Shown here: piece after piece, positions 16,007 through 64,000 of the stretch | How positions within the stretch are numbered: the first letter of the stretch is position 1 | How the letters are laid out: every line of letters starts with the position of its first letter | Virus record (IMG/VR): IMGVR_UViG_3300033233_000001 | Coordinates: 233,750-297,749 of that record | Length of the DNA stretch: 64,000 nucleotides | Strand: one strand, 5' to 3' | From: a virus | Notes under the pieces: model-generated | What the model saw: only the letters and a program-made list of their open reading frames with translations | Database searches by the model: none | Told to the model about the DNA's origin: nothing | Made by a program: the position numbers and the translations under genes

Positions 16007-18604
16007 TTACTCGTCCCCGCCGCCGCCCGCTACAGCCTCACGCAACAGCGCCATGGAATCCCTGATCAGGCGATGCCCGGCAGGCGTCGCACCCGCAGAC
16101 CGCGGCTCGACCGCCTTGATGCCGTCGATGATTTCCTGGTCGCTCTTGGCGCAGATGCCTTCGAGAATCGCGGTCGGGAAGCCGCCTTCCATGACCTTCT
16201 CGACGAACTCCTCAGCCGTGTCGGCCTGGTTCACGGAGTCGTGCACGAGCTTCGCGACCGCCAGAGCGATCTGCTTTTCCATCGCGTTCATGCTGACCCT
16301 CTCCGGACGAGCCGGCGCCGCCGCGACGGCCGCCGGAACCTGCTGTTGCTGCTGCGGGGCTGCCTGCTGAGCGGCGGGCTGCGGCTTCTGCGCGAACGGG
16401 CCCTGCCGCTGCTCCCACGGAGCCCTCGGGCGTTCGAGACCTTCAGCGAGATTCGGAATCGGATCGAAGTCAGCCGATCCACCGCGCTTACGGCGCCGCG
16501 GCGGGCCCTGCTGCGCGTGCTGCTCGGCCGCCGTCTGCTGAGCCTGCCGACGTGCCTGCTGCCCGGGAACCGGCGCGGCCGGCGCGGCCGGCGGCTGCCC
16601 CGGGGGGAGAAGCCGCGGCGGCTCCCCAAGCGGCTGGAGCCGAAGCCCTTCAGGCGTCTGCACGACCATCATCTGACCCATCGGAGTGATCACGATTTGG
16701 CCCGGAATCATGGCGCCCTGCTGTGGCTGCTGTCCGGGACCCGGACCCCTGACGAGCGTCGAGAGCGCGCTAAGCAGTTCCGGTCCGCGCTCGGCGACGG
16801 TCTGCACCATTTCGTTGAGGTCGACGTTCGAGCCAGAGAGTCCGATCCCGCTCGCACTACCCGAAGACGAAGACGAGGACGACGACGTGTTCTCGACGAG
16901 CCCGAGGCCATCACGAGCCGCATCTCGGAACTCGCGGAACCTGGTCATCTGGACCACCGGATCGTGCGTGTCCTGGAGCTTACTCCGAACCTCGCCGATC
17001 TCGCGTACCTTGTTGTCGACTTCCGACTGGAGCCAGCGCACGCGTTCGCCGTGATTCGTCTCGACCATCGCGAGACGCGCTTCCCACTGCGTCTTGAGGT
17101 TCATTTCCATCGTCTCGCGACTGTCCTTCGCCGCCTGATCGCGCTCGTTCTGGACCTCGCGTGCGCGTTCCTGATCGCGACGCCGCTCTTCACGCTCCTG
17201 CTTGATCTGGTCCTCGTACCGAAGCTCGCGGTGCCGCCAGGCCTCGCGCTCGGCCGCAAGCTCGCGCGCGGCCATCTCGCGCACGGATACGAGTTCCCGC
17301 TCGTGCGCGCCGCGCTCCATCTTGACCTGCTCATCGTGGCGCTGTTCGCGATGGCGCTGCGCCTCGCGTTCCGCCGCGATTTCGCGCGCATTCGCTTCAC
17401 GCGTCGCCGCGATCTCGCGTTCGTGTCCAGCCCGCAGGCCGTCGATCAGCGTCGCGTGCTGACCGCGCATGGCCTCGATCTCGGCGCGGTGTTTCTCGGA
17501 CGTCTGGTCGAGCACCTTGCCGGCAAGTTCAAGCTCGCCGCGCGGTGGAGGCGGCGGTGGCGGTGGCGGCTCCGGCTTGGGCATCGCCGAGAAGATGTCG
17601 CGGATCTCCGCCCCAAGACTCGGGCGCGAGTTTTCGACTTCCCGCCGTGCGTTCTCCATCTCTTCCATCCTTCGCAGAAGCACGTCGCTCTGCCGTCGTT
17701 GTTCTTCTAGCGCTCGTTCCAGCGTCGTCTGACGCTCCGCCGCGCGCTCGCGATCGACGGCCGCGCGCTCTTCGAGTGCCTTCCTCTCCGCTTCCGCACG
17801 CTCGCGATGAAGCGTGATGACGTCTTCGGAGCGACGAAGCTCTGCTTCTACGAGCGGAGCCGCCAGCTGTCGTGCATCGGCGAGGCCAACTTCGCTACGC
17901 TGCTCGACGCGCCGCCGCTCGTCACGCTCACTCGTTAGCGCGTCCTTGAGCGTGCCCATCGCGATCTCGACGATCCTCGGGTTCTCTTCTACCCGAACAG
18001 GCGGTGCGCTCGGCCCGCCGTCCTTTGCGTCTACCGTCTGCTGAGCACGAGAGACGCGCGCCCACTTCGGGTCGCCCTGGATGTTCACGCGCACCGACTC
18101 GTAGTGCTGGTAGCCCTGATTCGTGCCCGACTTCGGGCCCACAACCTTCACCAAGTACTCGCCGCCGCCGTATTCGTTCTGGATGAACGCCTCGTCGATC
18201 GGCTGGTCGTAGTCGTCGAGGAAGCCGTCGGCCTTTCGACCGCCAGGAAAGATCTTCGGCCACTGCCGATAGACCTGGAGCTTGAAATCCGCTCGCTGAC
18301 CGATGTTGTACTTGCCGACCAGGTACCCGATCGTCTTGACGTTCTCGACCGGCTTCGGCAGGTCAGGCACGATCGTCTGGAGCGCTTCTAGCTGCTCCAT
18401 CGTGATCTGCTCGACGTCCTTGGCCGGAGGCGTCGTCGCCAACGGCGGCTCGATCGACTCCGCAGCCGCTGCGGTCGCCTCAGCATCGTCACCGTCGGGC
18501 GGCACGACCCGAGTCGCGCCCTTCTTGTTGCGGTTTCGCTGCTGCTTCACCACGCCGTCGACGAGCTTGTCGATCTCGTCCTCGGTGGTCGTCGCGTCGC
18601 TCAC
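16007..18604 (-). CDS. 865-residue coiled-coil protein with YGGGEY module
   Basis: GTG start overlapping the upstream stop. Residues ~85-175 hold a module with YRQWPKIFPGG, DDYDQPIDEAF and NEYGGGEYLVKVVGP. Its core is identical over 63 residues to part of the gene at 45878. Then come ~300 residues of Arg/Glu coiled coil broken by a Pro run, a second coiled coil, a Gln/Pro-rich low-complexity region and a helical C-terminal domain. It lacks the basic tail. A long rod-forming virion or scaffold protein is the likeliest role; inferred. Confidence 0.7.
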   Translation of the reverse strand: MSDATTTEDEIDKLVDGVVKQQRNRNKKGATRVVPPDGDDAEATAAAAESIEPPLATTPPAKDVEQITMEQLEALQTIVPDLPKPVENVKTIGYLVGKYNIGQRADFKLQVYRQWPKIFPGGRKADGFLDDYDQPIDEAFIQNEYGGGEYLVKVVGPKSGTNQGYQHYESVRVNIQGDPKWARVSRAQQTVDAKDGGPSAPPVRVEENPRIVEIAMGTLKDALTSERDERRRVEQRSEVGLADARQLAAPLVEAELRRSEDVITLHRERAEAERKALEERAAVDRERAAERQTTLERALEEQRRQSDVLLRRMEEMENARREVENSRPSLGAEIRDIFSAMPKPEPPPPPPPPPRGELELAGKVLDQTSEKHRAEIEAMRGQHATLIDGLRAGHEREIAATREANAREIAAEREAQRHREQRHDEQVKMERGAHERELVSVREMAARELAAEREAWRHRELRYEDQIKQEREERRRDQERAREVQNERDQAAKDSRETMEMNLKTQWEARLAMVETNHGERVRWLQSEVDNKVREIGEVRSKLQDTHDPVVQMTRFREFRDAARDGLGLVENTSSSSSSSSGSASGIGLSGSNVDLNEMVQTVAERGPELLSALSTLVRGPGPGQQPQQGAMIPGQIVITPMGQMMVVQTPEGLRLQPLGEPPRLLPPGQPPAAPAAPVPGQQARRQAQQTAAEQHAQQGPPRRRKRGGSADFDPIPNLAEGLERPRAPWEQRQGPFAQKPQPAAQQAAPQQQQQVPAAVAAAPARPERVSMNAMEKQIALAVAKLVHDSVNQADTAEEFVEKVMEGGFPTAILEGICAKSDQEIIDGIKAVEPRSAGATPAGHRLIRDSMALLREAVAGGGGDE
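18086..18274 (-). repeat. 189-bp duplicated coding module, copy 1
   Basis: Inverted copy of 46451-46639, inside the late coiled-coil gene. It spans from the VYRQWPK segment to ESVRV in the protein. Boundaries are sharp: flanking residues diverge at once on both sides. Confidence 0.85.
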
Positions 18605-19308
18605 GGGGCGGGCTTCTCCGGTGACGGCGACGCCGCTGCCTCTGGGGGCGCGGGTTTCACCGGCTTCTTCGAGGTCTTCTTCGGCTTCTTGTCTGCCGGC
18701 GACGCACCTTCGGCCTCATCACCGTCGTCGTCGTCATCACCGTCGTCGTCGTCATCACCGTCGTCGTCATCACCGTCGTCGTCATCACCGTCGTCGTCCC
18801 GCTCCTCGTCGTCCTCGTCCTCGTTCTCCGGGCCCTCGGTCATCTGCTCCATGAGTTCCTGGATCTTCTCGGTGACACCGTTGAAGATCTTCTCCATGTC
18901 CTGATCACCAGGGAGCTTCTTCTGGAGGAAGGCCCCGAGTTCGTACATGGCGGCCGCGAGTTCCTGAACCGTCGCCATGGACGGCCCGTCATCTCCATCG
19001 TCCCCGAAGCGCTCCCGGAACGCCCGGTGAAGACGCCGGATATCGTCCGCGTTCGAGGCTGCGAACGCGTACGTGTCGTTCAAGGCCGGCCCGAGAAGTT
19101 CGAGCAACGTGATCATCTGCGGGTAGGCATACTGCCCGATGAACTGACGCAGCTGCGCCGGGTCGTCGAACGCCGGCTTGCCTCCGGGACCCTTGTCTCG
19201 AAGCAACTTCTTCCGCGACGCCTGAAGCTCGCTACGGAACTTGCCGAGCATCGGCGGCAGCGGCACTTCGCCGGTCTCTTCAATGGAGGCGCTCTCGTTT
19301 TCGCTCAT
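18601..19308 (-). CDS. acidic protein with Asp-repeat tract
   Basis: A 235-residue protein from the ATG at 19308. The N-terminal ~150 residues are helical (FRSELQASRKKLLRDKG; YAYPQMITLLELLGP). A tract of almost pure Asp/Glu/Gly, encoded by the imperfect tandem repeat at 18721-18799, follows. It ends in KKPKKTSKKPVKP, a short basic segment. The polyacidic tract could neutralise or chaperone the Arg-rich tails made by neighbouring genes; this is speculation. Confidence 0.7.
   Translation of the reverse strand: MSENESASIEETGEVPLPPMLGKFRSELQASRKKLLRDKGPGGKPAFDDPAQLRQFIGQYAYPQMITLLELLGPALNDTYAFAASNADDIRRLHRAFRERFGDDGDDGPSMATVQELAAAMYELGAFLQKKLPGDQDMEKIFNGVTEKIQELMEQMTEGPENEDEDDEERDDDGDDDDGDDDDGDDDDDGDDDDDGDEAEGASPADKKPKKTSKKPVKPAPPEAAASPSPEKPAP
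18721..18799 (+). repeat. tandem 15/18-bp repeat coding the Asp tract
   Basis: Repeats of ACCGTCGTCGTC(GTC)ATC in 18- and 15-base units, about 4.5 copies, in frame within the acidic gene on the minus strand. Unit length differs by one codon, as expected for slippage. Length variation between relatives would be neutral in frame. Confidence 0.8.
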
Positions 19309-20313: not shown

Positions 20314-20341
20314 TTGACAATGTGGACGCTGTCGCTATCAT
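20314..20341 (+). promoter_or_regulatory. early promoter 1
   Basis: TTGACA, 16-base spacer, TATCAT, preceded by CGC as in two other early promoters. A hairpin begins 10 bases after the -10 box and GGGAGG precedes the first early gene at 20382. Confidence 0.7.
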
Positions 20342-20351
20342 CTCGCCGTGA

Positions 20352-20369
20352 GCAGGCAAACACGCCTGC
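20352..20369 (+). promoter_or_regulatory. 5' leader hairpin 1 (loop AAACAC)
   Basis: Stem GCAGGC/GCCTGC with loop AAACAC at the predicted start of the transcript. It is one of five such hairpins in the window; the stem sequence differs from copy to copy while pairing is kept. Confidence 0.7.
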
Positions 20370-20381
20370 CGGGAGGACAGC

Positions 20382-20525
20382 ATGAACGAGAACACGCAGA
20401 CCGTGGACGGGGTCGAGGACAACGAGCGGCAGGAGGCCGAGGCGGAGTGCGGTCAGATGTCGGAGTACGAGACTCCGGCGTCGTGGGACGGTGGCGGCGC
20501 GCCGAGCGCAGACTCCGGGTGGTGA
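20382..20525 (+). CDS. 47-residue acidic early protein
   Basis: ATG 4 bases after GGGAGGAC. The product is 47 residues, rich in Glu/Asp/Gly (MNENTQTVDGVEDNERQ...), with no domain. It directly follows early promoter 1 and its leader hairpin, and its stop overlaps the next GTG. Small acidic first-early proteins are common in phages and often act on host enzymes, but nothing here shows a target. Confidence 0.6.
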   Translation: MNENTQTVDGVEDNERQEAEAECGQMSEYETPASWDGGGAPSADSGW

Positions 20526-20819: not shown

Positions 20820-20847
20820 TTGACGTACGCGTGGGACTGACTAAGCT
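20820..20847 (+). promoter_or_regulatory. early promoter 2
   Basis: TTGACG, 16-base spacer, TAAGCT, in the 98-base gap before the gene at 20890. A hairpin starts 12 bases after the -10 box. Confidence 0.6.
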
Positions 20848-20859
20848 CTGACACGTGAG

Positions 20860-20875
20860 CCGCCGAACATGGCGG
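20860..20875 (+). promoter_or_regulatory. 5' leader hairpin 2 (loop GAACAT)
   Basis: Stem CCGCC/GGCGG, loop GAACAT, followed by AAGGAGG. The ATG in the loop is in frame with the gene but lacks a ribosome site, so the start after AAGGAGG is preferred. Confidence 0.7.
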
Positions 20876-20889
20876 ACAAGGAGGACGGG

Positions 20890-21111
20890 ATGACACAGGA
20901 AGATCGAGAGTGGGCGGCGCGGAAGATCGCGCGGGACTTGGAGTCGCTCGGCGGCAAGACGCCGGAGCAGACTCTGGAGAGGGCGCACCTCGCCGTCGTC
21001 GACGTCGTCGTCGAGCACCTCGGCGAGTGCCCGCCAGCCGTGCGCGAGGCCGTCAAGCTCTGGCAAGCGGCCGGCGAAGCACTCGTGCGCGAGCAACGGA
21101 GGCCGTGGTGA
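20890..21111 (+). CDS. small helical early protein
   Basis: A 73-residue, fully helical protein (MTQEDREWAARKIARDLESLG...). AAGGAGG lies 5 bases upstream of the ATG at 20890. It follows promoter 2 and leader hairpin 2 and overlaps the next gene by GTGA. No family recognised. Confidence 0.7.
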   Translation: MTQEDREWAARKIARDLESLGGKTPEQTLERAHLAVVDVVVEHLGECPPAVREAVKLWQAAGEALVREQRRPW

Positions 21112-24328: not shown

Positions 24329-25044
24329 CCATCCGCGATCAGATCGCCGCACTCATGGCCGAACGCGCACGCGCTGCCGCGGCTCTCGCCGAGATCCCGA
24401 GCACAGCTGACGCCGACTTCGAGGTCCGCTGCGCCGAGTACCTCAAGCTCATCAAGCGCAAGCCGATGAAGGACCGGAACGCGCGATACACCGTGAGCGA
24501 GAAGTGCGAAGCGTGGGAAGACGCCGCGCTGCGCGCTCCCATCCTCGCGCGATACAGGCCCGAGTACGAGGCGCTGCGGAGCGAGCGACGCTGGCTCGAC
24601 TTCGAGATCGATCGGCTCTGCGAGGATGCGGCCCCGCTGCCCGGTAACGCCTGGATCGAGCTTCGGCGCACGCATCCGCACCACACACAGGGCTTCGGCG
24701 CCGACCACTACGGCGAGAACGAGGCCAAGCTCTACGCGTCGGAACGCGACCGTCTCGGCGTACAGGTCCGCGTCCGCAAGGTCACAGAGGGCGTCCAGAG
24801 CACCGATCGTTGGGGCTGCCCGAGCGGCTACCGCTACTGGGTCGTGGAGGCCTACGTCGCGGCCGAGGTCGATGCCGAGATCCTCCGCCACAAGTCGCTT
24901 CCGCTCCGCGAGTGGCTGGCCGCGTGCTGGGCTCGGCAGACCAACCCGCGCGTGCTATGCCCCGGCCTGCCGCACGGGCTCGAAGAGAAGCTCGGCGTCG
25001 ACTACTTCGGGAACATCAAGGAGCGCGCCCATGGCCACGCGTAA
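24325..25044 (+). CDS. unknown early protein
   Basis: A 239-residue protein, GTG start overlapping the previous stop. The N-terminal 100 residues are charged helices. The remainder has WIELRRTHPHHTQGFGADHYGE, GVQVRVRKVTEG and a C-terminal Cys. The mixed alpha/beta C-terminal part looks enzymatic or binding, but no motif is diagnostic. The next gene begins inside its last 14 bases. Confidence 0.65.
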   Translation: MTIRDQIAALMAERARAAAALAEIPSTADADFEVRCAEYLKLIKRKPMKDRNARYTVSEKCEAWEDAALRAPILARYRPEYEALRSERRWLDFEIDRLCEDAAPLPGNAWIELRRTHPHHTQGFGADHYGENEAKLYASERDRLGVQVRVRKVTEGVQSTDRWGCPSGYRYWVVEAYVAAEVDAEILRHKSLPLREWLAACWARQTNPRVLCPGLPHGLEEKLGVDYFGNIKERAHGHA

Positions 25045-25861
25045 GGTTCAAGGCGGCAAGCGCATCGACACGTGGTCATGGACCGTCGAGGGCCGCGCCG
25101 TGCCCGTTGAAGTTTACATGGCCAAGGCCGGACGCAGCTACGGAGAGCCCGACAGGCCGCCGGAAGGCTCCACGATCTTCCATGCCGTCTGCGAAGAACT
25201 CGACATCCGCGACACGGACGTCGATATCAACGCGCTCAAGGCGCGCGCCGAGCAGACCGTCAAGACCCGCGTCACGGTCGACTGGCAACCCATGTTGCTA
25301 GTCACGCTCACCGGCGATCGGCCGCCGCCCGAGAAGACCAAGTGGTCTGTCGAAGACGAGCAGCCGTACAAGCCAGTTACGCCCGAGCCGTACGTCTTCG
25401 GCCAGTTCCCGCCGCCGCCTCCGACGACCACAACGCGACCGCTCTTCGTTCGCGGGCCGTACGCGGACGTGGAGATGAAGATCGAGATCCATGCGATCGA
25501 TATCGCCGAGATCCTCGGCGAGAAGAAGCACCGGATCCGGATGCGTAAAACGAACGAGAAGGCCGACATCCGCGACGGCTGGCCGGACACCGGCGACTTC
25601 ACCAAGCCGACCAAGGAGAAGCGGGAGCACGTCTACAGCAACTACCACCACGCCCGTACAATCGCGATGATCCCGGACACGCCAGAGAACCGCACAGGGC
25701 TGATCCAGATCCGCGCCGCGCTGGAAACCCTCGTCGACAAGCTCGATCAGCTGCTCCATCCGGACCGCATCGAGGACACGCTGTCGCGTGCGCTGGCATC
25801 GACGGCCGTGGCGATGCTGCCGGAGTCCACCGAAACGACCACACGCGGGAAGCGAAAATGA
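25031..25861 (+). CDS. unknown early protein with Pro/Thr linker
   Basis: A 276-residue protein from the ATG at 25031. The N-terminal domain starts KRIDTWSWTVEGRAVPVEVY. A PPPPPTTTT linker separates it from a C-terminal helical domain with HVYSNYHHARTIAMIP and a paired-helix end. In-frame termination overlaps the next ATG. The two domains likely act together; no family recognised. Confidence 0.65.
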   Translation: MATRKVQGGKRIDTWSWTVEGRAVPVEVYMAKAGRSYGEPDRPPEGSTIFHAVCEELDIRDTDVDINALKARAEQTVKTRVTVDWQPMLLVTLTGDRPPPEKTKWSVEDEQPYKPVTPEPYVFGQFPPPPPTTTTRPLFVRGPYADVEMKIEIHAIDIAEILGEKKHRIRMRKTNEKADIRDGWPDTGDFTKPTKEKREHVYSNYHHARTIAMIPDTPENRTGLIQIRAALETLVDKLDQLLHPDRIEDTLSRALASTAVAMLPESTETTTRGKRK

Positions 25862-26031
25862 CGAGCGAAGAGCGTTTCTGGAACGCCAAGTGGGACGAGT
25901 ATCGCGCGGCACATCCCGAAGTCGTCGAGCGGCCATCGTGGCTCAAGCTCGGCATCACGCCGCGCGTACACGAAGCGAACGTCGCGCGCTGCAAGCTCGA
26001 TGCGTGGCACGAGAGGTTCTTCGCGCTCTAG
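25858..26031 (+). CDS. 57-residue unknown protein
   Basis: A short ORF in the same operon, ATGA-coupled to the previous stop: MTSEERFWNAKWDEYRAAHPEV and on to a TAG. It is aromatic and charged, helical. The codon pattern matches its neighbours, and its end is followed within 5 bases by the -35 box of early promoter 3. No domain. Confidence 0.6.
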   Translation: MTSEERFWNAKWDEYRAAHPEVVERPSWLKLGITPRVHEANVARCKLDAWHERFFAL

Positions 26032-26035
26032 GCGC

Positions 26036-26064
26036 TTGACAGGCGCCTCGACCGAGGCTAGATA
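26036..26064 (+). promoter_or_regulatory. early promoter 3
   Basis: TTGACA, 17-base spacer, TAGATA in the 76-base gap between genes. A hairpin begins 10 bases after the -10 box. Confidence 0.7.
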
Positions 26065-26074
26065 GACGACTGAA

Positions 26075-26090
26075 CCGGCGGACATGCCGG
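26075..26090 (+). promoter_or_regulatory. 5' leader hairpin 3 (loop GGACAT)
   Basis: Stem CCGGC/GCCGG, loop GGACAT, then GAGGAGG and the ATG at 26108. The third and fourth stem pairs are swapped relative to hairpins 2 and 4, so pairing is kept while sequence changes. Confidence 0.72.
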
Positions 26091-26107
26091 ACGTGAGGAG
26101 GAACCGA

Positions 26108-26347
26108 ATGATCACAGTTGGACAGCTTCGCAAGGCTCTGGACGGGCTGGACGATTCGCTTCCCGTCCTCGTGGAAGGCGGCTCGGACCACAGCTACAAG
26201 TCCCACTACATCCGTGCGCGCGTCGAGACGGTCGGGAAGTTCGAGAACGCCCGTCGACGCGACAGCGCACAGTTCAGCGAGTGGTACGACGAGCACAACG
26301 CGAGCCCCGGAGAGAAGCCGGTCCAGGCCCTCGTCATCGAAGGCTGA
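26108..26347 (+). CDS. small early protein (QLRKALDGLDDSLPV type)
   Basis: A 79-residue protein from the ATG with GAGGAGG 7 bases upstream. MITVGQLRKALDGLDDSLPVLV resembles a small fold found in many phages (ITVGQLxxxLxxLPxDxPV) with unknown role. It is the first gene after promoter 3 and its leader hairpin. Confidence 0.72.
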   Translation: MITVGQLRKALDGLDDSLPVLVEGGSDHSYKSHYIRARVETVGKFENARRRDSAQFSEWYDEHNASPGEKPVQALVIEG

Positions 26348-28712: not shown

Positions 28713-28740
28713 TTGCGTCCGTCCACGGAGTGAGTAGCTT
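28713..28740 (+). promoter_or_regulatory. early promoter 4
   Basis: TTGCGT, 16-base spacer, TAGCTT, after a six-T run that follows the preceding stop. The -10 box overlaps the motif GCTTACGACACAC (28737-28749). Confidence 0.6.
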
Positions 28741-28753
28741 ACGACACACACAA

Positions 28754-28769
28754 CCGCCGGACATGGCGG
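28754..28769 (+). promoter_or_regulatory. 5' leader hairpin 4 (loop GGACAT)
   Basis: Stem CCGCC/GGCGG, loop GGACAT, 13 bases after the -10 box and before AGGAAGG of the next gene. Same loop as hairpin 3, same stem as hairpin 2. Confidence 0.7.
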
Positions 28770-28786
28770 AGAACAGGAAGGTTCCA

Positions 28787-29083
28787 GTGCCAGCAGGACA
28801 TCTCCGACTCGTCATGAACGACGAGCAACCCAAGCCCGAACAGGCCGTCACCGCGCTCGCCCACGAGGACGGCTGGGTCATCGGTCTCGCGACCGAGAAC
28901 GAGGCGGGCTACAACCGGCTGAACTACGGACCCTTCGAGGCGGAAGCGCGCGCGTTCGCCGACGCCACCAACGAGCGCACGTTCCACGTGTCGCCGAAGC
29001 GCGCGATGATGATCGTCGCCTCCAGCATGTTCCCGGCGCCGCCGAGGGCGCACGCCAAGCGCCGGAAGGAGTGGCCTGCCTGA
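28787..29083 (+). CDS. small early protein
   Basis: 98 residues from GTG 5 bases after AGGAAGG; an ATG inside the leader hairpin is in frame but poorly placed. Pattern: HEDGWVIGLATENEAGYNRL, FEAEARAFADATNERTF, a compact alpha/beta fold. Its stop overlaps the next ATG (TGATG). No family recognised. Confidence 0.65.
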   Translation: MPAGHLRLVMNDEQPKPEQAVTALAHEDGWVIGLATENEAGYNRLNYGPFEAEARAFADATNERTFHVSPKRAMMIVASSMFPAPPRAHAKRRKEWPA

Positions 29084-54905: not shown

Positions 54906-57608
54906 TCATCTTCGTCGCCGCCGGTTTCTCTTCGGCCGCCGCCGTGGTCCATGCACGATCCTGCCGATCATCATGCCGACGGAGAACGCGACGACCTGCA
55001 CGGCGAGACCAGTCGCTAGCTGACCCCACCAGGGCCAGCGCTTCGACGATCTTGCTGGTGCTAGCGCCGTAGGACGCGCTGGAGAGACAGTCGCCGCCGG
55101 ATTCGTGTACACCACGACCGGGCCGGTAAACACCGAGCCGGTGTAGATGTTGATCGGTTGGCTGAAAATGCCCTGCTGAACAGGGTTCGCAGAGTCCTTA
55201 CGCTTGCGCTTCTTCTTCTTTTTCTTGGGCTTTCGCGGCTTACTGCGCGCTTCCGCTTCAGCCGCCGCAACGTCCATCGCATCTGCGGCGTTTTCAGCGG
55301 CCTTTTCCGCTTCAGCACGCCGCAGGAACTCGCTCCACTCGACGTCTTCCGTCGACTCTCGAAGTGCGAGGGCGGGACGCTTTCGCTTTTGTGCGCCAGC
55401 GCCGGCCAGACGTTGAACCGCATCGTAGGCGGCAGTCAGATCTGCGAAGACGTCGCTGTCGCCACCGAGGTCCGGATGCAGCTTGCGCGCAGCGCGACGC
55501 AGGCTTTTACGCGCCGTCGTTCCCAGCAACTCAAGGTCGTCACTCTCGTCGATGTAATCGGCGGGGCCTCCATCGCGCTTGAGATAAATCGGTGGCAGTC
55601 CGCCGCCGCCACCAGTCAGAATACCGGCGCCGCCCGCGGGCACAAACGGCGGAACGTACGCCGGAGGTAGCGGCGGAGGCGGAGGAGGCGGCGGCGGCGG
55701 GAGCGGGCCAAGACCGAACGAGTCCGGCTGCTGCGGTACCGGACGGTCGAGTCGATCTGGGAAGACCGCACCGAAGAACGTCGGAACCGCCGCTGGCGCG
55801 ACGATGACGACGACCGGCACCTGCTCTGGCACCGGAGCCCTCGGACGATCGAGCCACTCAGGCGCGTACGCATCGAAGAACGGCGCAGTACGATCAATCG
55901 GCGTTTCGGCGACGCTATCCGGCTGCTGTGGTACCGGCCGATCCAGCCGATCGTCGAAGTAGGCCTCGGCGAACGGAACAACATCTTCCGGTTCGACGAA
56001 GACGACTGCTACTTGCTCGGCGATCGGAAGCCAGGGCCGATCGATACGGTCCGGAACTAGCGCATCGAAATAGGGGTCCGTTCTGTCGAGCGGGACCAGC
56101 GACAGACTATCTGGCTGCTGCGGTGCCGGCCGGTCGAGGCGATCCGGCGCTACGACATCCTCAAGCGGCGAGGTTCGGTCAGTAGCGGTCTCGACCGCCG
56201 ACTCGGGCTGTTGCGGCTGCGGACGATCCAGCCGCTCTGGCGCATACGCGTCAAAGAAGGTGGCAGCGCTCTCTTGGATCGGCTGCGGCGACTCTGGCTG
56301 CTGCGGTACCGGACGGTCGAGTCGATCATCGAAGTAGGCGTCCGCGAATGGAATAACGTCTTCGGGCTCAACGAAGACCAGCGCCAACTGATCGGCGACC
56401 AGGAGATACGGCCTATCAAGACGCTCGGGTGCGTACGCATCGAAGAACAACGACGCGCGATCGACTGGCGTCGCGGCAACACTGTCTGGCTGCTGCGGTA
56501 CAGGACGATCGAGACGCTCTGGCGCCACGACATCCGCAAGCGACTGCGTCCGATCGATGGATGTCGCAACAAAGCTATCGGGCTGCTGCGGTACAGGACG
56601 ATCGAGACGCTCTGGCGCCACGACATCCGCAAGCGACTGCGTCCGATCGATGGATGTCGCAACAAAGCTATCGGGCTGCTGCGGTACCGGCCTATCCAAC
56701 CGGTCGTCAAAATAAGCCTCGGCAAACGGGACGACGTCCTCTGGCTCGACGAAGACCAGCGCCAGCTGATCGGCAACTAGGAGATACGGCCGGTCCAGAC
56801 GCTCTGGCGCCACAACCGTCGCCAGTGGCGACGTGCGATCGCGTGACGTAAACGTCGCGCTGTCCGGCTGCTGCGGCCACGGTCTATCGATGCGGTCCGG
56901 GAAGAACGCGGCCGCTGCCGGAGCAGTCCGGTCGCGCGGGACGATCGCCGTGTCAGGCTGCTGCGCGCCGGGCTTGTCGAGACGGTCGGGGAAGATCGCC
57001 GCCGCCGCGGGAACAACGCGGTCTCTCGGCGTAAAAACAAACGAGTCCGGCTGCTGCGGTACCGGACGGTCGACACGGTCCGGGAAAACAGCGACGGCTA
57101 GCGGGGCAACTCGCTCGCGGATCGGGGCGACGAACGAGTCCGGCTGCTGAGCGCGCGGACGATCGAGTCGCTCCGGAGCGTACGTCTCCGCAAACGGAAG
57201 ACGCCTGTCTCGCGGAACAAGTACCGACTCACCAAGAACAAAGCGAGAGGCAGCGTCGAGCCGTGGAGGACCGATGGCATCGAAGAACGTCGCCGTCCGC
57301 TCGCGAAGCGCGATGACGAACGAGTCTGGCTGCTGCGGACGCGGGCGGTCGAGACGTTCCGGCGCGACAACAGTCTCTAGCGGCCCAGTACGTTCTGGGA
57401 TCGGGGTAGAGAACGAGTCCGGCTGCTGCGGTACCGGACGGTCGAGTCGATCTGGGAAGACCGCACCGAAGAACGTCGGAACCGCCGGAGGCTGTAGCGG
57501 ATAGACCGCCGACTCCGGCTGCTGCGGAACTCGCGCCGGGAAAGCAACCGGCGCGTCCACTGACGGGACGAGCGGAAGCTGCTGCGCGATGAGTGACGCA
57601 AGCGCCAC
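54906..57608 (-). CDS. 900-residue PERLDRP-repeat protein with DnaJ-like domain and basic tail
   Basis: GTG start with AGGAGG 4 bases upstream. Residues ~30-610 are about 20 degenerate units of 31-37 residues, each with (P/A)(D/E)RLDRP...PQQPDS. A Pro/Gly hinge precedes a J-like domain (~660-700, LLGTTARKSLRRAARKLHPDLGG ... FADLTAAYDAVQRLAG); the HPD of the J loop is intact. A Lys-rich stretch, a membrane segment (QLATGLAVQVVAFSVGMMIG) and the tail PRRRPKRNRRRRR end it. It links this late block to the left one. Confidence 0.82.
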   Translation of the reverse strand: MALASLIAQQLPLVPSVDAPVAFPARVPQQPESAVYPLQPPAVPTFFGAVFPDRLDRPVPQQPDSFSTPIPERTGPLETVVAPERLDRPRPQQPDSFVIALRERTATFFDAIGPPRLDAASRFVLGESVLVPRDRRLPFAETYAPERLDRPRAQQPDSFVAPIRERVAPLAVAVFPDRVDRPVPQQPDSFVFTPRDRVVPAAAAIFPDRLDKPGAQQPDTAIVPRDRTAPAAAAFFPDRIDRPWPQQPDSATFTSRDRTSPLATVVAPERLDRPYLLVADQLALVFVEPEDVVPFAEAYFDDRLDRPVPQQPDSFVATSIDRTQSLADVVAPERLDRPVPQQPDSFVATSIDRTQSLADVVAPERLDRPVPQQPDSVAATPVDRASLFFDAYAPERLDRPYLLVADQLALVFVEPEDVIPFADAYFDDRLDRPVPQQPESPQPIQESAATFFDAYAPERLDRPQPQQPESAVETATDRTSPLEDVVAPDRLDRPAPQQPDSLSLVPLDRTDPYFDALVPDRIDRPWLPIAEQVAVVFVEPEDVVPFAEAYFDDRLDRPVPQQPDSVAETPIDRTAPFFDAYAPEWLDRPRAPVPEQVPVVVIVAPAAVPTFFGAVFPDRLDRPVPQQPDSFGLGPLPPPPPPPPPPLPPAYVPPFVPAGGAGILTGGGGGLPPIYLKRDGGPADYIDESDDLELLGTTARKSLRRAARKLHPDLGGDSDVFADLTAAYDAVQRLAGAGAQKRKRPALALRESTEDVEWSEFLRRAEAEKAAENAADAMDVAAAEAEARSKPRKPKKKKKKRKRKDSANPVQQGIFSQPINIYTGSVFTGPVVVYTNPAATVSPARPTALAPARSSKRWPWWGQLATGLAVQVVAFSVGMMIGRIVHGPRRRPKRNRRRRR
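56488..56685 (-). repeat. 93-bp perfect tandem duplication
   Basis: Two apparently identical 93-base units (31 codons) within the repeat region, for example the motif CAGGACGATCGAGACGC at 56501 and again at 56594. The lack of silent differences marks a recent duplication, showing that the array still expands. Confidence 0.85.
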
Positions 57609-57634: not shown

Positions 57635-58303
57635 TCAGGTCTTCATGATCAGCTGGACTTCATGCCAACGGATGAAGAAGAACTGCTGAGCCGCGGCGGC
57701 CGCAGCTGCCTTCACGGCCTGCACACTGAACGCGCCACCGGGCGGCACGATGTAGAGGCCGCGCGCGCTGACCTCGTTGACCTTCCAGTTTGCACCCGCA
57801 GCCGCAGCGGCCATCTGGCCCGAGGTGCCATGAGCGAACCAGCCGTCATTCGCCACCGTCGCCGTCGTACGCGGGATGCCACGACCACCGTATGCACCAC
57901 GACCAGAAAGCGAGCGCGTCGTCGTAAGCGCCGTGCCCGTCGGTGCCGCGCTGTTCGCGGCATTGAGCATGGCAAAGATCGCCGTCACGTCCGTCTGCGC
58001 CGCGTCGACGACGCCTTCCCAGGACCCGAACGAGTCGATCACGTAGCTCATCCCGGTCGCTGGCTCGCCATTCTGGAGCGTGAGCCCGCTCGTCGTCGTC
58101 GGCAGCGCTGTGAGCGCCGCGAGACCGGTGGCAAGTGCCACCTGGTAGCTCTGACCGAGACGCACGAGTTCCGCTAGCTCGGGCATCGACTGTGCGACGA
58201 CGAGGTCGCCGCGGTTGTTGATGATGATCTGCTCGTCCTCGCGATTCTCGGGGTAATTGCCCGCGAAGAACCCCCTGACACGTCCTGCGAATTTCGCCAA
58301 CAT
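57635..58303 (-). CDS. structural-type protein
   Basis: A 222-residue protein: MLAKFAGRVRGFFAGN start, then Ala/Thr-rich beta sequence (MSYVIDSFGSWEGVV; RGLYIVPPGGAFSV; FFIRWHEVQLI). The polar start plus beta-rich, low-Cys composition is typical of phage capsid-associated or decoration proteins. No family recognised. It lies one gene away from M4-like zinc protein and shares style with the gene at 58961. Confidence 0.62.
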   Translation of the reverse strand: MLAKFAGRVRGFFAGNYPENREDEQIIINNRGDLVVAQSMPELAELVRLGQSYQVALATGLAALTALPTTTSGLTLQNGEPATGMSYVIDSFGSWEGVVDAAQTDVTAIFAMLNAANSAAPTGTALTTTRSLSGRGAYGGRGIPRTTATVANDGWFAHGTSGQMAAAAAGANWKVNEVSARGLYIVPPGGAFSVQAVKAAAAAAAQQFFFIRWHEVQLIMKT

Positions 58304-58960: not shown

Positions 58961-59413
58961 TCACTGCTCTTCGAGAAGAGCGGCAGCGTCGACTGCGAGC
59001 GCGGTCGCCGTGGGCGTACGGATGCCGAAGCCGCTTGCGTTCGTCGCCGGGTACGTAAGCTCCGAGTACGGAGCCGCGACCCAGCGGAACGTGGCGCGCT
59101 GGTTCAAGTCGATCGTGAGCAACGTCTGACCCGCCGTGTAAGTCGGCTCGACCGTGTGGTTCTGGCCGGCAAGGCCCAGGTAGGCGGTGTCGGCGAGGTC
59201 AAGAGCAGCCGGCGTTACCGCCGTGCTCGTCCCAGCGGCTGTGATGCGCGCGACGATCCACTGAAAGATGTTGTCGGCCGGCGCTGCGGAACACCCAACA
59301 GTCAACTCGTACAACTTGCCGCGGCGCAAAGCGGTTGCGCTCGACGCGACGAACGAGCCGACAGTCGTGGCCGCGGCGGCAGTGCGGGTGAAACTCTGAG
59401 CGTACCGTGCCAT
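58961..59413 (-). CDS. structural-type protein (MARYAQSF)
   Basis: A 150-residue protein from the ATG with AAGGAG upstream: MARYAQSFTRTAAAATTVGSF, LYELTVGCSAAPADNIFQW, LTIDLNQRATFRW. I recognise this pattern from other phage genomes, where it is annotated as a structural or hypothetical beta-sandwich protein. The palindromes at 59474 and 59530 lie upstream of it. Confidence 0.72.
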   Translation of the reverse strand: MARYAQSFTRTAAAATTVGSFVASSATALRRGKLYELTVGCSAAPADNIFQWIVARITAAGTSTAVTPAALDLADTAYLGLAGQNHTVEPTYTAGQTLLTIDLNQRATFRWVAAPYSELTYPATNASGFGIRTPTATALAVDAAALLEEQ

Positions 59414-59473
59414 CTGGATTCTCCTTCGGGATTTTGGGAACCCTATCAGCAAAGACCCGCGCGGTGCAACTCT

Positions 59474-59487
59474 TTTGGGATCCCAAA
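59474..59487. promoter_or_regulatory. palindrome TTTGGGATCCCAAA
   Basis: Perfect 14-base palindrome, core TGGGATCCCA. Shares its core with 39389-39400 and 59530-59543. Candidate operator. Confidence 0.55.
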
Positions 59488-59529
59488 CCTGGGGCATTCG
59501 GAGCGCGCGCCAAGTTGGCGCGGATCAGG

Positions 59530-59606: not shown

Positions 59607-60416
59607 CTAGGTCCAGGTAGGAACGTGCAGCCGGTGGCCTTCCGAGAAATCGGACTCCGCACCGGTCAACGCGACCGCTCTTCGGGGACGTCGCAGGGAA
59701 GACACAGGCCAGTCGTTCGCGCTGAAGAACGCACCGAACGCGCCGCCGGTCCAGCTGTGCCAGATGTGTTCGTCGCGACACGTCGCGAACCGCACGAAGT
59801 ACTGCTGCACGCCCGGCGGCGCCTCGCCGCACACGAAGTAGCCAGCCCCGTCCGACGGCACGTGCCACCGCAGGCACTCCGGCCGCGGAGTGTGCGCGAG
59901 GCGTGCGACGCACGCGCTCCGTAGAGCCGCACGCTCGGCGTCGGTGAGGGCCACAACCGCGGTCTCGGTGCCGATGGCCGTACGGAGGTCGCGCTCGACC
60001 TCGGACTCCGGGGGTGGCGCAGCAGCAGCGACTTCGCGCGCACGATGGGCCTCGCGCCAGGCGTCCTTCTCGGCTACAAGGCGGTCTGCCTGTGCGTGCC
60101 GCTCGGCGGCGAGTCGCGTCCTAGCAGCCGCTGCCGATTCCGCAGCCGCTCTATGATGCGAGGCCTGCTCGCGAGCCACGGCCTGCCGCGCCCAATCAAG
60201 TAGATCGGCCGTTGTCTCGCCTAGATCGTCACGGCGCTCCACCTTCGCGCACGAGGAAAGGTGGATGACGATCTGTTCATCACCCCTGCCGACCGTCAGA
60301 TATCCTTGCAGCGGCGCCCAAAGGAGCAATGGGCCCACAAGATCACGTCGGCCGGTGTCGGTAAACTCCAAGTCGGAACGAAGAAGAACGAAGACGGTGG
60401 CCCGGACCGCGGACAC
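59607..60416 (-). CDS. unknown late protein
   Basis: A 269-residue protein, GTG start. A beta-rich start (VFVLLRSDLEFTDTGRRDL) precedes an Ala/Arg/Glu coiled coil (~75-130). The C-terminal half has TDAERAALRSACVARL and WHVPSDGAGYFVCGEAP, then FVRFATCRDEHIWHSW. No family recognised. Three bases from the next gene's stop. Confidence 0.62.
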   Translation of the reverse strand: MSAVRATVFVLLRSDLEFTDTGRRDLVGPLLLWAPLQGYLTVGRGDEQIVIHLSSCAKVERRDDLGETTADLLDWARQAVAREQASHHRAAAESAAAARTRLAAERHAQADRLVAEKDAWREAHRAREVAAAAPPPESEVERDLRTAIGTETAVVALTDAERAALRSACVARLAHTPRPECLRWHVPSDGAGYFVCGEAPPGVQQYFVRFATCRDEHIWHSWTGGAFGAFFSANDWPVSSLRRPRRAVALTGAESDFSEGHRLHVPTWT

Positions 60417-60419
60417 GGC

Positions 60420-60884
60420 TTAGCGCCTGTAGCGCCGGTCGCCCGCTGGCGACTTGTCGTCATGGTCCTCGACGCAGCCGAGTTCGCGCTCAAGCTGAAA
60501 GCGCGTGAAGCGAATCGGCTCGGTATAGGTCCCGTGCGCATCCCACCAGCCATCATGCAGCTGACGAGCGTGAAGCCAGTTCTCGTTCGGGAAGACCCAC
60601 ACGAAGCCACCGGAGTCGAAGAACGACGACGGACGTAGAATGACGTCCTCGTCGTCGACGACTTTCCAGTCCTCGATCTCCCACTCGTCCGACACGGCGC
60701 CTGCGGCCTCGGCCATCACGCGTGCGTCGCAAAGCACGGCAGTGCGATCGCGAGGGCCTGGCATGTCGATCGTGAACTCCCAGCCGTCCTTCTCGTTGAC
60801 GGCCGTGTAGAGTCGACGAATGTCCACCGCCTCGTCACGCGCACGCGAGAGGACAACGCGCTCCTCCCAGGTGAGCGCCTTCAA
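60420..60884 (-). CDS. unknown late protein
   Basis: 154 residues from a TTG that overlaps the previous stop (GAGGAG upstream); an ATG at 60917 would add 11 residues but lacks a ribosome site. LTWEERVVLSRARDEAVDIRRL, a beta segment (WEFTIDMPGP) and an aromatic FVWVFPNENWLHARQLHDGWW segment are visible. No family recognised. Confidence 0.6.
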   Translation of the reverse strand: MKALTWEERVVLSRARDEAVDIRRLYTAVNEKDGWEFTIDMPGPRDRTAVLCDARVMAEAAGAVSDEWEIEDWKVVDDEDVILRPSSFFDSGGFVWVFPNENWLHARQLHDGWWDAHGTYTEPIRFTRFQLERELGCVEDHDDKSPAGDRRYRR

Positions 60885-61180
60885 GTGCACTCCTCGACGT
60901 CGGCCGCTGAAATCCATCCGGCCGGACAGCGCGTGCCGCGGACCATGACGCCCTCGGGTCCGACCTTGACGACGACGCAGCGCGCGCCTCGTACGCGCAC
61001 CTCATCGCCGACCGCGAACTCGGGAGGCGGTGCGAAGTCGGCCGGAGCGGAGAGCGACGGAGGCTGCTGCGTCGGATCGCCGTAGCGCGCCTCGCGCGAC
61101 GACACTCGGCGGACCCAGCCCGCGCGGCGCGCGCGAGTGTCGTGAGATCGACTGAACCGCGATGGGGGCGAGGCGGTCAT
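60881..61180 (-). CDS. small KOW/SH3-like protein
   Basis: A 99-residue protein. The N-terminal half is basic and Pro-rich (RFSRSHDTRARRAGWVRR); the C-terminal ~45 residues look like a small barrel (EFAVGDEVRVRGARCVVVKVGPEGVMV). ATGA-coupled to the lipoprotein gene. Function unknown. Confidence 0.6.
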   Translation of the reverse strand: MTASPPSRFSRSHDTRARRAGWVRRVSSREARYGDPTQQPPSLSAPADFAPPPEFAVGDEVRVRGARCVVVKVGPEGVMVRGTRCPAGWISAADVEECT

Positions 61181-62043
61181 GGTGCGTAGGGTGGTGGGTC
61201 GACGAGAACGAAAGCACTACCAGTCATAGCGGGGTATGACGTCGTTGACAACATCGCATCCGTCGCGGTCAGCGCAAGGAACGCGCCGGGGCCGCTACTG
61301 CCAACGACCCTCGGGAGCGCGACCGCGGCGGCCCCGGTCGAACCGTCCGGCCGCACCCAGTACCACGTTCCCGGCAGCATCGTGCCCACGCGTTGAAGCG
61401 GGAGGCCACCATAGCAGGAAGCGCCGCCACAGGAAGAAGAAGTGACACTGCCGCCAACGAACAAGGCCGAGCGGAGCGAAGCGAACAACGCGTCGCGGTT
61501 GACGGCGCTGGACCAAGTGAGCAGGCGGGCATGATGGCGGGCCGCGAGCAGCGGGGTCAGCGCTGTGTTGAGATAGTACACGCAGTCGTACGTCACCGGC
61601 GTGGTGTCGTACGTCACCGGCGTGGTGCTTCCGGTGAAGCCCGGCGGCAGGACAGGACAGTGCATGCAGTCGGTGACGGGACACAGCGCCAGGTCGGTCG
61701 GGTCGAACGTGCCGTCGGCGCGGGGCGGCCCCGGGTCACAGATCTCGCCCGGATCGAGCACGCCGTTGCCACACAAACCAGACGCCATCGTCCCGGCGTC
61801 TGTCGGACCGGGCCAGGCATCCTCGGCGACCGGACCGCCGTCGGTACCGGGCAGGACGTACGCATCGGCCGAACCCGTGCCGCCATCGGTGCCAGGGCCC
61901 GCGTCGGAGCGCGGACCAGCGTCGACGGCCGGGCCGCTGTCGACGGCCGGACCGGCGTCGGTTGGCATGCCGGCCTCGATCAGCGAGTCCATGCCGCCGC
62001 AGCCAGGGATCAGGAACAAGCAGATGATGTAGGCGTTTCGCAT
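61177..62043 (-). CDS. Myxococcota-type surface lipoprotein
   Basis: A 288-residue protein. Lipoprotein signal MRNAYIICLFLIPGC (lipobox IPGC). A linker of PTDAGPAVDSGP-type repeats runs to about residue 90, then CGNGVLDPGEICD, the Cys-rich motif common on myxobacterial surface proteins. A C-terminal domain has NTALTPLLAARHHARLL, NRDALFASLRSALF and SSSCGGASCYGG. GAAGGGAG precedes the ATG. It may coat the host surface (exclusion) or be captured host cargo; both are inference. Confidence 0.82.
   Translation of the reverse strand: MRNAYIICLFLIPGCGGMDSLIEAGMPTDAGPAVDSGPAVDAGPRSDAGPGTDGGTGSADAYVLPGTDGGPVAEDAWPGPTDAGTMASGLCGNGVLDPGEICDPGPPRADGTFDPTDLALCPVTDCMHCPVLPPGFTGSTTPVTYDTTPVTYDCVYYLNTALTPLLAARHHARLLTWSSAVNRDALFASLRSALFVGGSVTSSSCGGASCYGGLPLQRVGTMLPGTWYWVRPDGSTGAAAVALPRVVGSSGPGAFLALTATDAMLSTTSYPAMTGSAFVLVDPPPYAP
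61587..61628. repeat. 21-bp tandem repeat
   Basis: Two copies of a 21-base unit (TCGTACGTCACCGGCGTGG plus two) in the lipoprotein gene, giving a duplicated TTPVTYD in the protein. Confidence 0.75.
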
Positions 62044-62060
62044 TCGCAGTCTCCCTTCAG

Positions 62061-62078
62061 GCCGCCGTGTTTGACGGC
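62061..62078 (-). promoter_or_regulatory. 5' leader hairpin 5 (loop AAACAC), minus strand
   Basis: Stem GCCGTC/GGCGGC (one T-G wobble), loop AAACAC, exactly the loop of hairpin 1. It begins 10 bases after the -10 box of the lipoprotein promoter. Confidence 0.68.
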
Positions 62079-62088
62079 TCAGTCGGAC

Positions 62089-62116
62089 AGTCTAGCGCGT
62101 GTTGGAGTGGTGTCAA
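62089..62116 (-). promoter_or_regulatory. lipoprotein promoter
   Basis: Minus strand: TTGACA (62116-62111), 16-base spacer, TAGACT (62094-62089), preceded by GGCGC as in the early promoters. Confidence 0.72.
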
Positions 62117-63540: not shown

Positions 63541-64000
63541 GTGACCTCACCGCTGCGCTGGCTCTACGAGCGCTATCGGGCCGCCCCAGCAGCCTCGCTC
63601 CTCATGGTCACGCGCAAGCCGGGCGAGTGGCTTCCGATCACACCCGGCAGCCCAGAGGCGCGCTACATCGGCGACGCCCTCGGGCTCGACACGACGGCCG
63701 CTGCCGGTCTCGTGGCCGCGCTGAAGCGGCTGGCCGGTCTCTCGCTGAACGAAATGCTCGGGATCACCTCGGATCACGAGGTCCGGATCACCCACTTCCG
63801 GAACGGGACCAGCCAGACCGTGCACGCCCGGTTCTTCCTGGCGCTACCGGGCAAGTCACGCGGCCCACGCATCGACAGACGGATGCTGCCGACGGCTATT
63901 TCCACTCAGGCGGTATTCGATCTCAGTGCCTCGGACGGCGAAACGGACCCAAAAGGAGTGGGCGTCCGTCGGACCGAATTTGGGGTCGCACTCGAAAATG
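63541..64000 (+). CDS. unknown protein, partial at window edge
   Basis: GTG start, open to the end (153 residues seen). VTSPLRWLYERYRAAPAASLLMVTRK, then YIGDALGLDTTAAAGLVAALKR (helical), LNEMLGITSDHEVRITHF and a Thr/Val C-terminal part. No family recognised. It lies behind a long structured leader. Confidence 0.5.
   Translation, partial: MTSPLRWLYERYRAAPAASLLMVTRKPGEWLPITPGSPEARYIGDALGLDTTAAAGLVAALKRLAGLSLNEMLGITSDHEVRITHFRNGTSQTVHARFFLALPGKSRGPRIDRRMLPTAISTQAVFDLSASDGETDPKGVGVRRTEFGVALEN

Follow-up and report, generated by a model that had tools for sequence, protein, structure and literature searches.

A host-style lipoprotein gene in the promoter–hairpin regulon of a very large virus, probably a myxobacterial phage

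What does a virus gain from a surface lipoprotein gene that resembles those of its host, and is that gene under viral control? The question is raised by a 288-aa open reading frame near the end of a 64,000-nt stretch of viral DNA (the window; bases 233750-297749 of an IMG/VR record of 297,749 bp). An earlier note, made from the letters alone, read the gene as that of a myxobacterial surface lipoprotein with its own strong promoter and a viral-type leader hairpin, and suggested exclusion of other viruses or an altered host surface as the advantage. Most known examples of phage lipoproteins that modify the host surface are small proteins of coliphages.

Genome and Likely Host

The two ends of the record (L008:1-136 and window 63875-64000) share 126 bp that follow a 10-nt remnant, CTCTTTCCCT, resembling a sequencing adapter; the genome is thus a closed circle of ~297.6 kb, though the record is classed as linear. 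Within 20 kb lie 31 tRNA genes in an array (L005:101-14110), and the genome encodes RNA ligases, helicases, a DNA polymerase exonuclease subunit and two integrases. No terminase match was obtained across the whole record with the profiles tried (Pfam Terminase_6N, phrog_9), so its virion genes are unproven, and virion hallmark genes are either absent or too diverged for these profiles. Its viral status rests on the gene set and on 178-aa and 222-aa proteins, encoded close to the lipoprotein gene, that have relatives in the head modules of other phages. We take the genome to be that of a very large bacterial virus with a likely myxobacterial host, based indirectly on the genomes that bear the peptide CGNGVLDPGEICD and on the Myxococcota relatives of a second lipoprotein (both below). 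Myxobacteria are predatory soil bacteria whose cells exchange outer-membrane lipoproteins.

The genome also encodes a PurZ-like 2-aminoadenylosuccinate synthetase (PHROG name; L152:17581-18942) and a nicotinamide phosphoribosyltransferase (NAMPT; L149:6608-8215), making modified-base DNA and NAD metabolism possible. A tRNA with anticodon CTA (Pyl according to ARAGORN) is found at L153:861-935, and TAG is the stop codon of 58 of the 266 predicted genes. A LAGLIDADG intein-like stretch is inserted in a UvrD-type helicase (L151:7842-11210).

Layout of the Lipoprotein Gene

The features of the locus are collected in Table 1. The reading frame is intact, and its G+C content by codon position (0.64/0.62/0.80) is like that of the adjoining genes. 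The lipobox, read from the sequence, is LFLIPG before the lipid-carrying Cys. Gly at +2 and Leu at +7 after this Cys predict sorting to the outer membrane under the Myxococcus rule for lipoproteins, as quoted in PMC5562445. The Pro at -2 and a signal peptide of just 14 residues count against the surface role that we favour below. The Asp-Ala/Ser-Gly-Pro linker is the sole such run found by a scan of the genome. For the C-terminal region, AlphaFold2 without an alignment was uninformative (pLDDT 34); a domain with neither a homologue nor a trusted structure likewise weighs against that role.

Table 1. Features of the lipoprotein locus and copies of the promoter–hairpin module (window positions, unless an L-prefixed locus is given)
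Feature	Position	Strand	Basis
-35 hexamer TTGACA	62111..62116	-	
-10 hexamer TAGACT, 16-nt spacer	62089..62094	-	
Leader hairpin GCCGTC-AAACAC-GGCGGC, 6-bp stem, RRACAY hexaloop, predicted mRNA 5' end	62061..62078	-	
Ribosome-binding site GAAGGGAG	62051..62058	-	sequence
Lipoprotein gene, 288 aa	61177..62043	-	ORF; ATG start
Signal peptide and lipobox, MRNAYIICLFLIPG then Cys, aa 1-15	61999..62043	-	sequence
Asp-Ala/Ser-Gly-Pro-rich linker, aa 26-90, ~65 residues	61774..61968	-	sequence
CGNGVLDPGEICD, aa 91-103, start of a motif of the myxobacterial disulfide-repeat type	61735..61773	-	exact-peptide search
C-terminal region without detectable relatives, aa 104-288, ~185 residues	61180..61734	-	
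99-aa gene, start overlaps lipoprotein stop	60881..61180	-	ORF
165-aa gene, same run	60420..60917	-	ORF
269-aa gene, same run	59607..60416	-	ORF
178-aa protein	58961..59497	-	family in 76 IMG/VR loci
222-aa protein	57635..58303	-	relatives in 4 IMG/VR loci
Module copy	20327..20393	+	covariance model
Module copy	20833..20900	+	covariance model
Module copy	26050..26115	+	covariance model
Module copy, weaker	28726..28794	+	covariance model
Further module copies	L150:820-6187 (six sites); L151:12736-12804; L152:917-983		

A Repeated Promoter–Hairpin Module

The promoter, TTGACA-16-TAGACT, matches 10 of 12 consensus bases and lies 45 nt before the start codon, confirming that the gene has a promoter of its own; a score this high occurs upstream of 1.5% of the genome's genes vs 0.18% of random 200-mers. 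The stability of the leader hairpin by itself is ordinary (folding energy z = -0.16), and its exact sequence recurs only once in the window. Alignment of the leaders behind similar promoters revealed a composite module, cgcTTGACA-N16/17-TAGAnT, followed by ~10 nt, a stem of 5-6 pairs closing an RRACAY hexaloop, a ribosome-binding site and the start codon, of which the ~297.6-kb genome holds 13 copies. Seven of these are found under strict rules, compared with none in 6 Markov controls, and more appear under looser rules. The stem pairs vary between copies without loss of pairing: 8 cells differ on both sides, a count reached in 0 of 500 shuffles and partly favoured by the manner in which sites were chosen. 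A covariance model trained on eleven other sites, with the lipoprotein site held out, recovers the leader of the lipoprotein gene with a score of 39.8 bits and E = 2e-7 over 298 kb, and the site L150:3394-3460, which was in no model's training set, was also recovered by covariance model. The covariance model finds no copy of the module in 379 Myxococcota genomes or among 656 kb of loci from other phages, a strict pattern gives none in IMG/VR, and Rfam contains no such family. It is as a conserved module, by the strict counts and the held-out recovery, that the leader hairpin proves to be of viral type.

Ten of the 13 genes behind the module encode proteins of 47-139 aa, mostly orphans; the other three encode the lipoprotein, a 310-aa protein and a 306-aa protein that we take to be ParB-like from a match and our own reading of it. 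Since the lipoprotein site is a full copy, the gene belongs to a viral regulon in which most genes are small orphans, and the shared promoter, hairpin and ribosome-binding site place its integration in viral control on firmer ground than the earlier note could know. Several copies share a TGTTGCGAtAGACGC-like element before the -35 box; the lipoprotein copy is without it.

The usual distance from a -10 hexamer to the transcript start is 6-8 nt, which would put the hairpin at the 5' end of the mRNA or very close to it. The leader could serve as an mRNA stabiliser, a nascent-transcript element or a binding site for a phage regulator; its conserved loop would favour recognition over mere stability. 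Early expression is probable, because the promoter resembles the host-polymerase type and the co-regulated genes are mostly small orphans, a pattern suggestive of early phage genes read by the host polymerase.

Host-Style Scaffold and Search for Relatives

We searched species genomes totalling 257 billion bases for the exact 13-residue peptide CGNGVLDPGEICD, using its back-translation, and found it in five loci of Polyangiales and uncultured bacteria: one in a Polyangium sp., one in a Polyangiaceae MAG, two on separate contigs of one uncultured genome (which came up when the order to which the Polyangium genome belongs was searched) and one in an uncultured 'proteobacterium'. All five lie within cysteine-rich surface-type proteins, one of them behind a lipobox, and the exact peptide occurs in 0 viral contigs. 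This distribution makes the scaffold of the lipoprotein host-style, and the lipobox, linker and motif on which the earlier note had based that view are all present. The linker by itself is not diagnostic, since its DAGP pattern has 25 matches in IMG/VR, every one a tandem satellite repeat or a collagen-like protein and none preceded by a convincing lipobox.

The 288-aa protein matches no family in Pfam, NCBIfam (up to E = 1), PHROGs or PADLOC. No relative of the whole protein or of its C-terminal part was found in phage records, plasmids, IMG/VR, species genomes, the 379 Myxococcota genomes or 20 related virus records, nor any relative of the lipoprotein in the 81 phage loci that hold the downstream 178-aa and 222-aa families. 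Single-protein pattern searches detect close relatives only, so that distant ones may exist. The search for the nearest homologue thus points to Polyangiales for the motif and yields none for the C-terminal domain; because none was found at all, the nearest homologues are not viral structural proteins, the outcome that the earlier note had named as fatal to its reading.

Three leads were rejected. Weak matches of the C-terminal region in 69 Myxococcota genomes were noise on inspection. A resemblance of this region to C-type lectins, seen by eye, was examined by hmmsearch, hhalign and shuffles; it scored -1.6 bits against a profile with 24 Polyangiales domains, was equalled by 47 of 300 shuffles and gave no Lectin_C match. 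A diversity-generating retroelement was discarded, with no reverse transcriptase in the record.

Other Lipoproteins in Such Phages

A second lipoprotein of 325 aa (record 24926-25903; L148:4926-5903) has a DAG-type linker, DSDAGPPDSGPP, and a thaumatin domain (PF00314, E = 1.7e-16), and among solved structures the nearest are thaumatin-like proteins. This lipoprotein has relatives at 40-74% identity in seven IMG/VR loci, several of them keeping their own lipobox and DAG linker, and at 40-43% in 3 of the 379 Myxococcota genomes. The 74% relative lies in a 199-kb record of a distant phage (G426) that has few other genes in common with the present genome. The thaumatin lipoprotein gene is without the promoter–hairpin module. 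Three more lipoprotein-like genes of host style with a lipobox were noted in G426 (L172:4051-4770, L172:2582-2896 and L168 ~18387-18719), two of them with Asp/Ala-rich linkers. Taken together, the phage relatives of the thaumatin protein and these genes indicate that lipoproteins are a repeated cargo of such phages.

The Downstream Gene Run

The lipoprotein stop codon overlaps the start of the next gene (ATGA), and the same-strand run continues to 54906, with a 110-bp gap between its first four genes and the virion-type genes behind them. In MW202566, the 178-aa family lies downstream of terminase and portal genes, and the neighbourhoods of the 222-aa relatives in the 4 IMG/VR loci contain terminase, portal and major head proteins. 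These virion-module families make late expression or a link to the virion an equally good fit to the gene order. Profile searches recognised no receptor-binding or tail-tip gene adjoining the lipoprotein gene. Window 54906-57608 encodes a 900-aa protein with repeated ERLDRPxPQQPDSF units and a hydrophobic stretch followed by a basic tail, which belongs to no family.

Discussion

The lipoprotein combines a myxobacterial-style scaffold (lipobox, Asp-Ala-Gly-Pro linker and CGNG...GE.CD motif) with an orphan C-terminal domain. We propose that it is transcribed from the phage regulon, through a sigma-70-like promoter, a 5'-terminal stem-loop and a strong ribosome-binding site, and is probably made early in infection. 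The product would then be exported and lipidated and reach the outer membrane; there it may alter the infected cell's surface or one of its receptors. This phage-controlled alteration of the cell surface is the account that we prefer, with slightly better than even confidence. Superinfection exclusion, functionally like that by T5 Llp, would be its likeliest single use; we give the exclusion of competing phages specifically about one chance in three.

Alternatively, the lipoprotein may be linked to the virion, for example in anchoring or attachment, and be expressed together with the structural genes that follow. The same-strand run does reach the proteins with relatives in head modules; on the other hand, a lipobox with a secretion signal, the lack of a lipoprotein relative in the 81 loci with those families, the gap before the virion-type genes and a leader common to small non-structural genes all argue against this role, and we regard it as unlikely. 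It is about as doubtful that the gene is a passenger, captured from the host and of no selected use to the phage. Its host-style scaffold and the lack of a relative in other phages would suit a passenger, but the full promoter-hairpin-RBS copy, the preserved stem pairing and the intact frame would not, and the recurrence of lipoproteins in such phages counts against chance. That a bacterial fragment was joined to the phage contig is scarcely credible: the gene does lie ~2 kb from the record end, but the record closes as a circle, and the phage-specific leader directly before the gene, a copy of the common module, already refutes such an artefact.

A toxin related to SitA would have its N-terminal half deliver it to sibling cells by myxobacterial outer-membrane exchange, a toxic C-terminus and the 99-aa gene as its immunity gene. 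The C-terminal toxin domain of SitA is usually a nuclease. SitA proteins are lipoproteins whose C-terminal domains vary and whose immunity gene lies downstream, and their residence on prophage-like Mx-alpha elements of myxobacteria makes this a real rival (PMC5562445). The likeness extends to the predicted outer-membrane lipobox (+2 Gly, +7 Leu), the orphan C-terminal half, the small, tightly coupled downstream gene and the mobile-element home, with integrases in the genome. Conversely, neither a toxin nor an immunity match was obtained in NCBIfam, Pfam or PADLOC (which diverged toxins could escape), no sitB-like gene was recognised upstream, and the phage-type promoter and leader are common to many small phage genes instead of belonging to a cassette of their own. 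Furthermore, SitA is reported only from species with traAB. We consider such a toxin improbable.

A large host-style lipoprotein is thus wired into a viral regulon of a probable myxobacterial phage. The regulon, with 13 copies of a promoter and 5'-terminal hairpin, a conserved loop and no counterpart family in Rfam, offers a handle on phage gene timing. If the lipoprotein acts at the surface, the spread of a phage protein between cells by outer-membrane exchange becomes testable. More speculatively, large myxobacterial phages could carry sets of host-style lipoproteins (the present one, the thaumatin protein and several in G426), some under a dedicated viral regulon, that remodel the envelope, and in hosts with outer-membrane exchange the present protein could also reach uninfected neighbours, protecting or marking the entire group; we hold this broader scheme to be rather improbable.

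Known exclusion lipoproteins, including Llp and Cor, are small, whereas the present protein has 288 aa, a long linker and an orphan domain, a difference in size that counts against exclusion. Furthermore, no receptor-binding gene is recognised beside it, and no sequence relation to either protein is known. What it would share with them is a phage-encoded outer-membrane lipoprotein, here predicted, and early timing, here suspected: T5 Llp is a phage outer-membrane lipoprotein that blocks a receptor and is made early in infection (PMC9586334). Among bacterial proteins, CGNGVLDPGEICD is identical to repeats in cysteine-rich surface proteins of the DUF4215/myxo_disulf_rpt type from Polyangium and relatives, but the lipoprotein has the first half of one repeat only and gives no profile match. 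The module, for its part, recalls the SAS/ESAS elements of cluster K mycobacteriophages, repeated inverted-repeat elements that directly precede the start codons of some phage genes (PMC3203893); it differs from them in sequence, in belonging to an unrelated phage and in joining a promoter to a hairpin of 6 bp where the mRNA is predicted to start.
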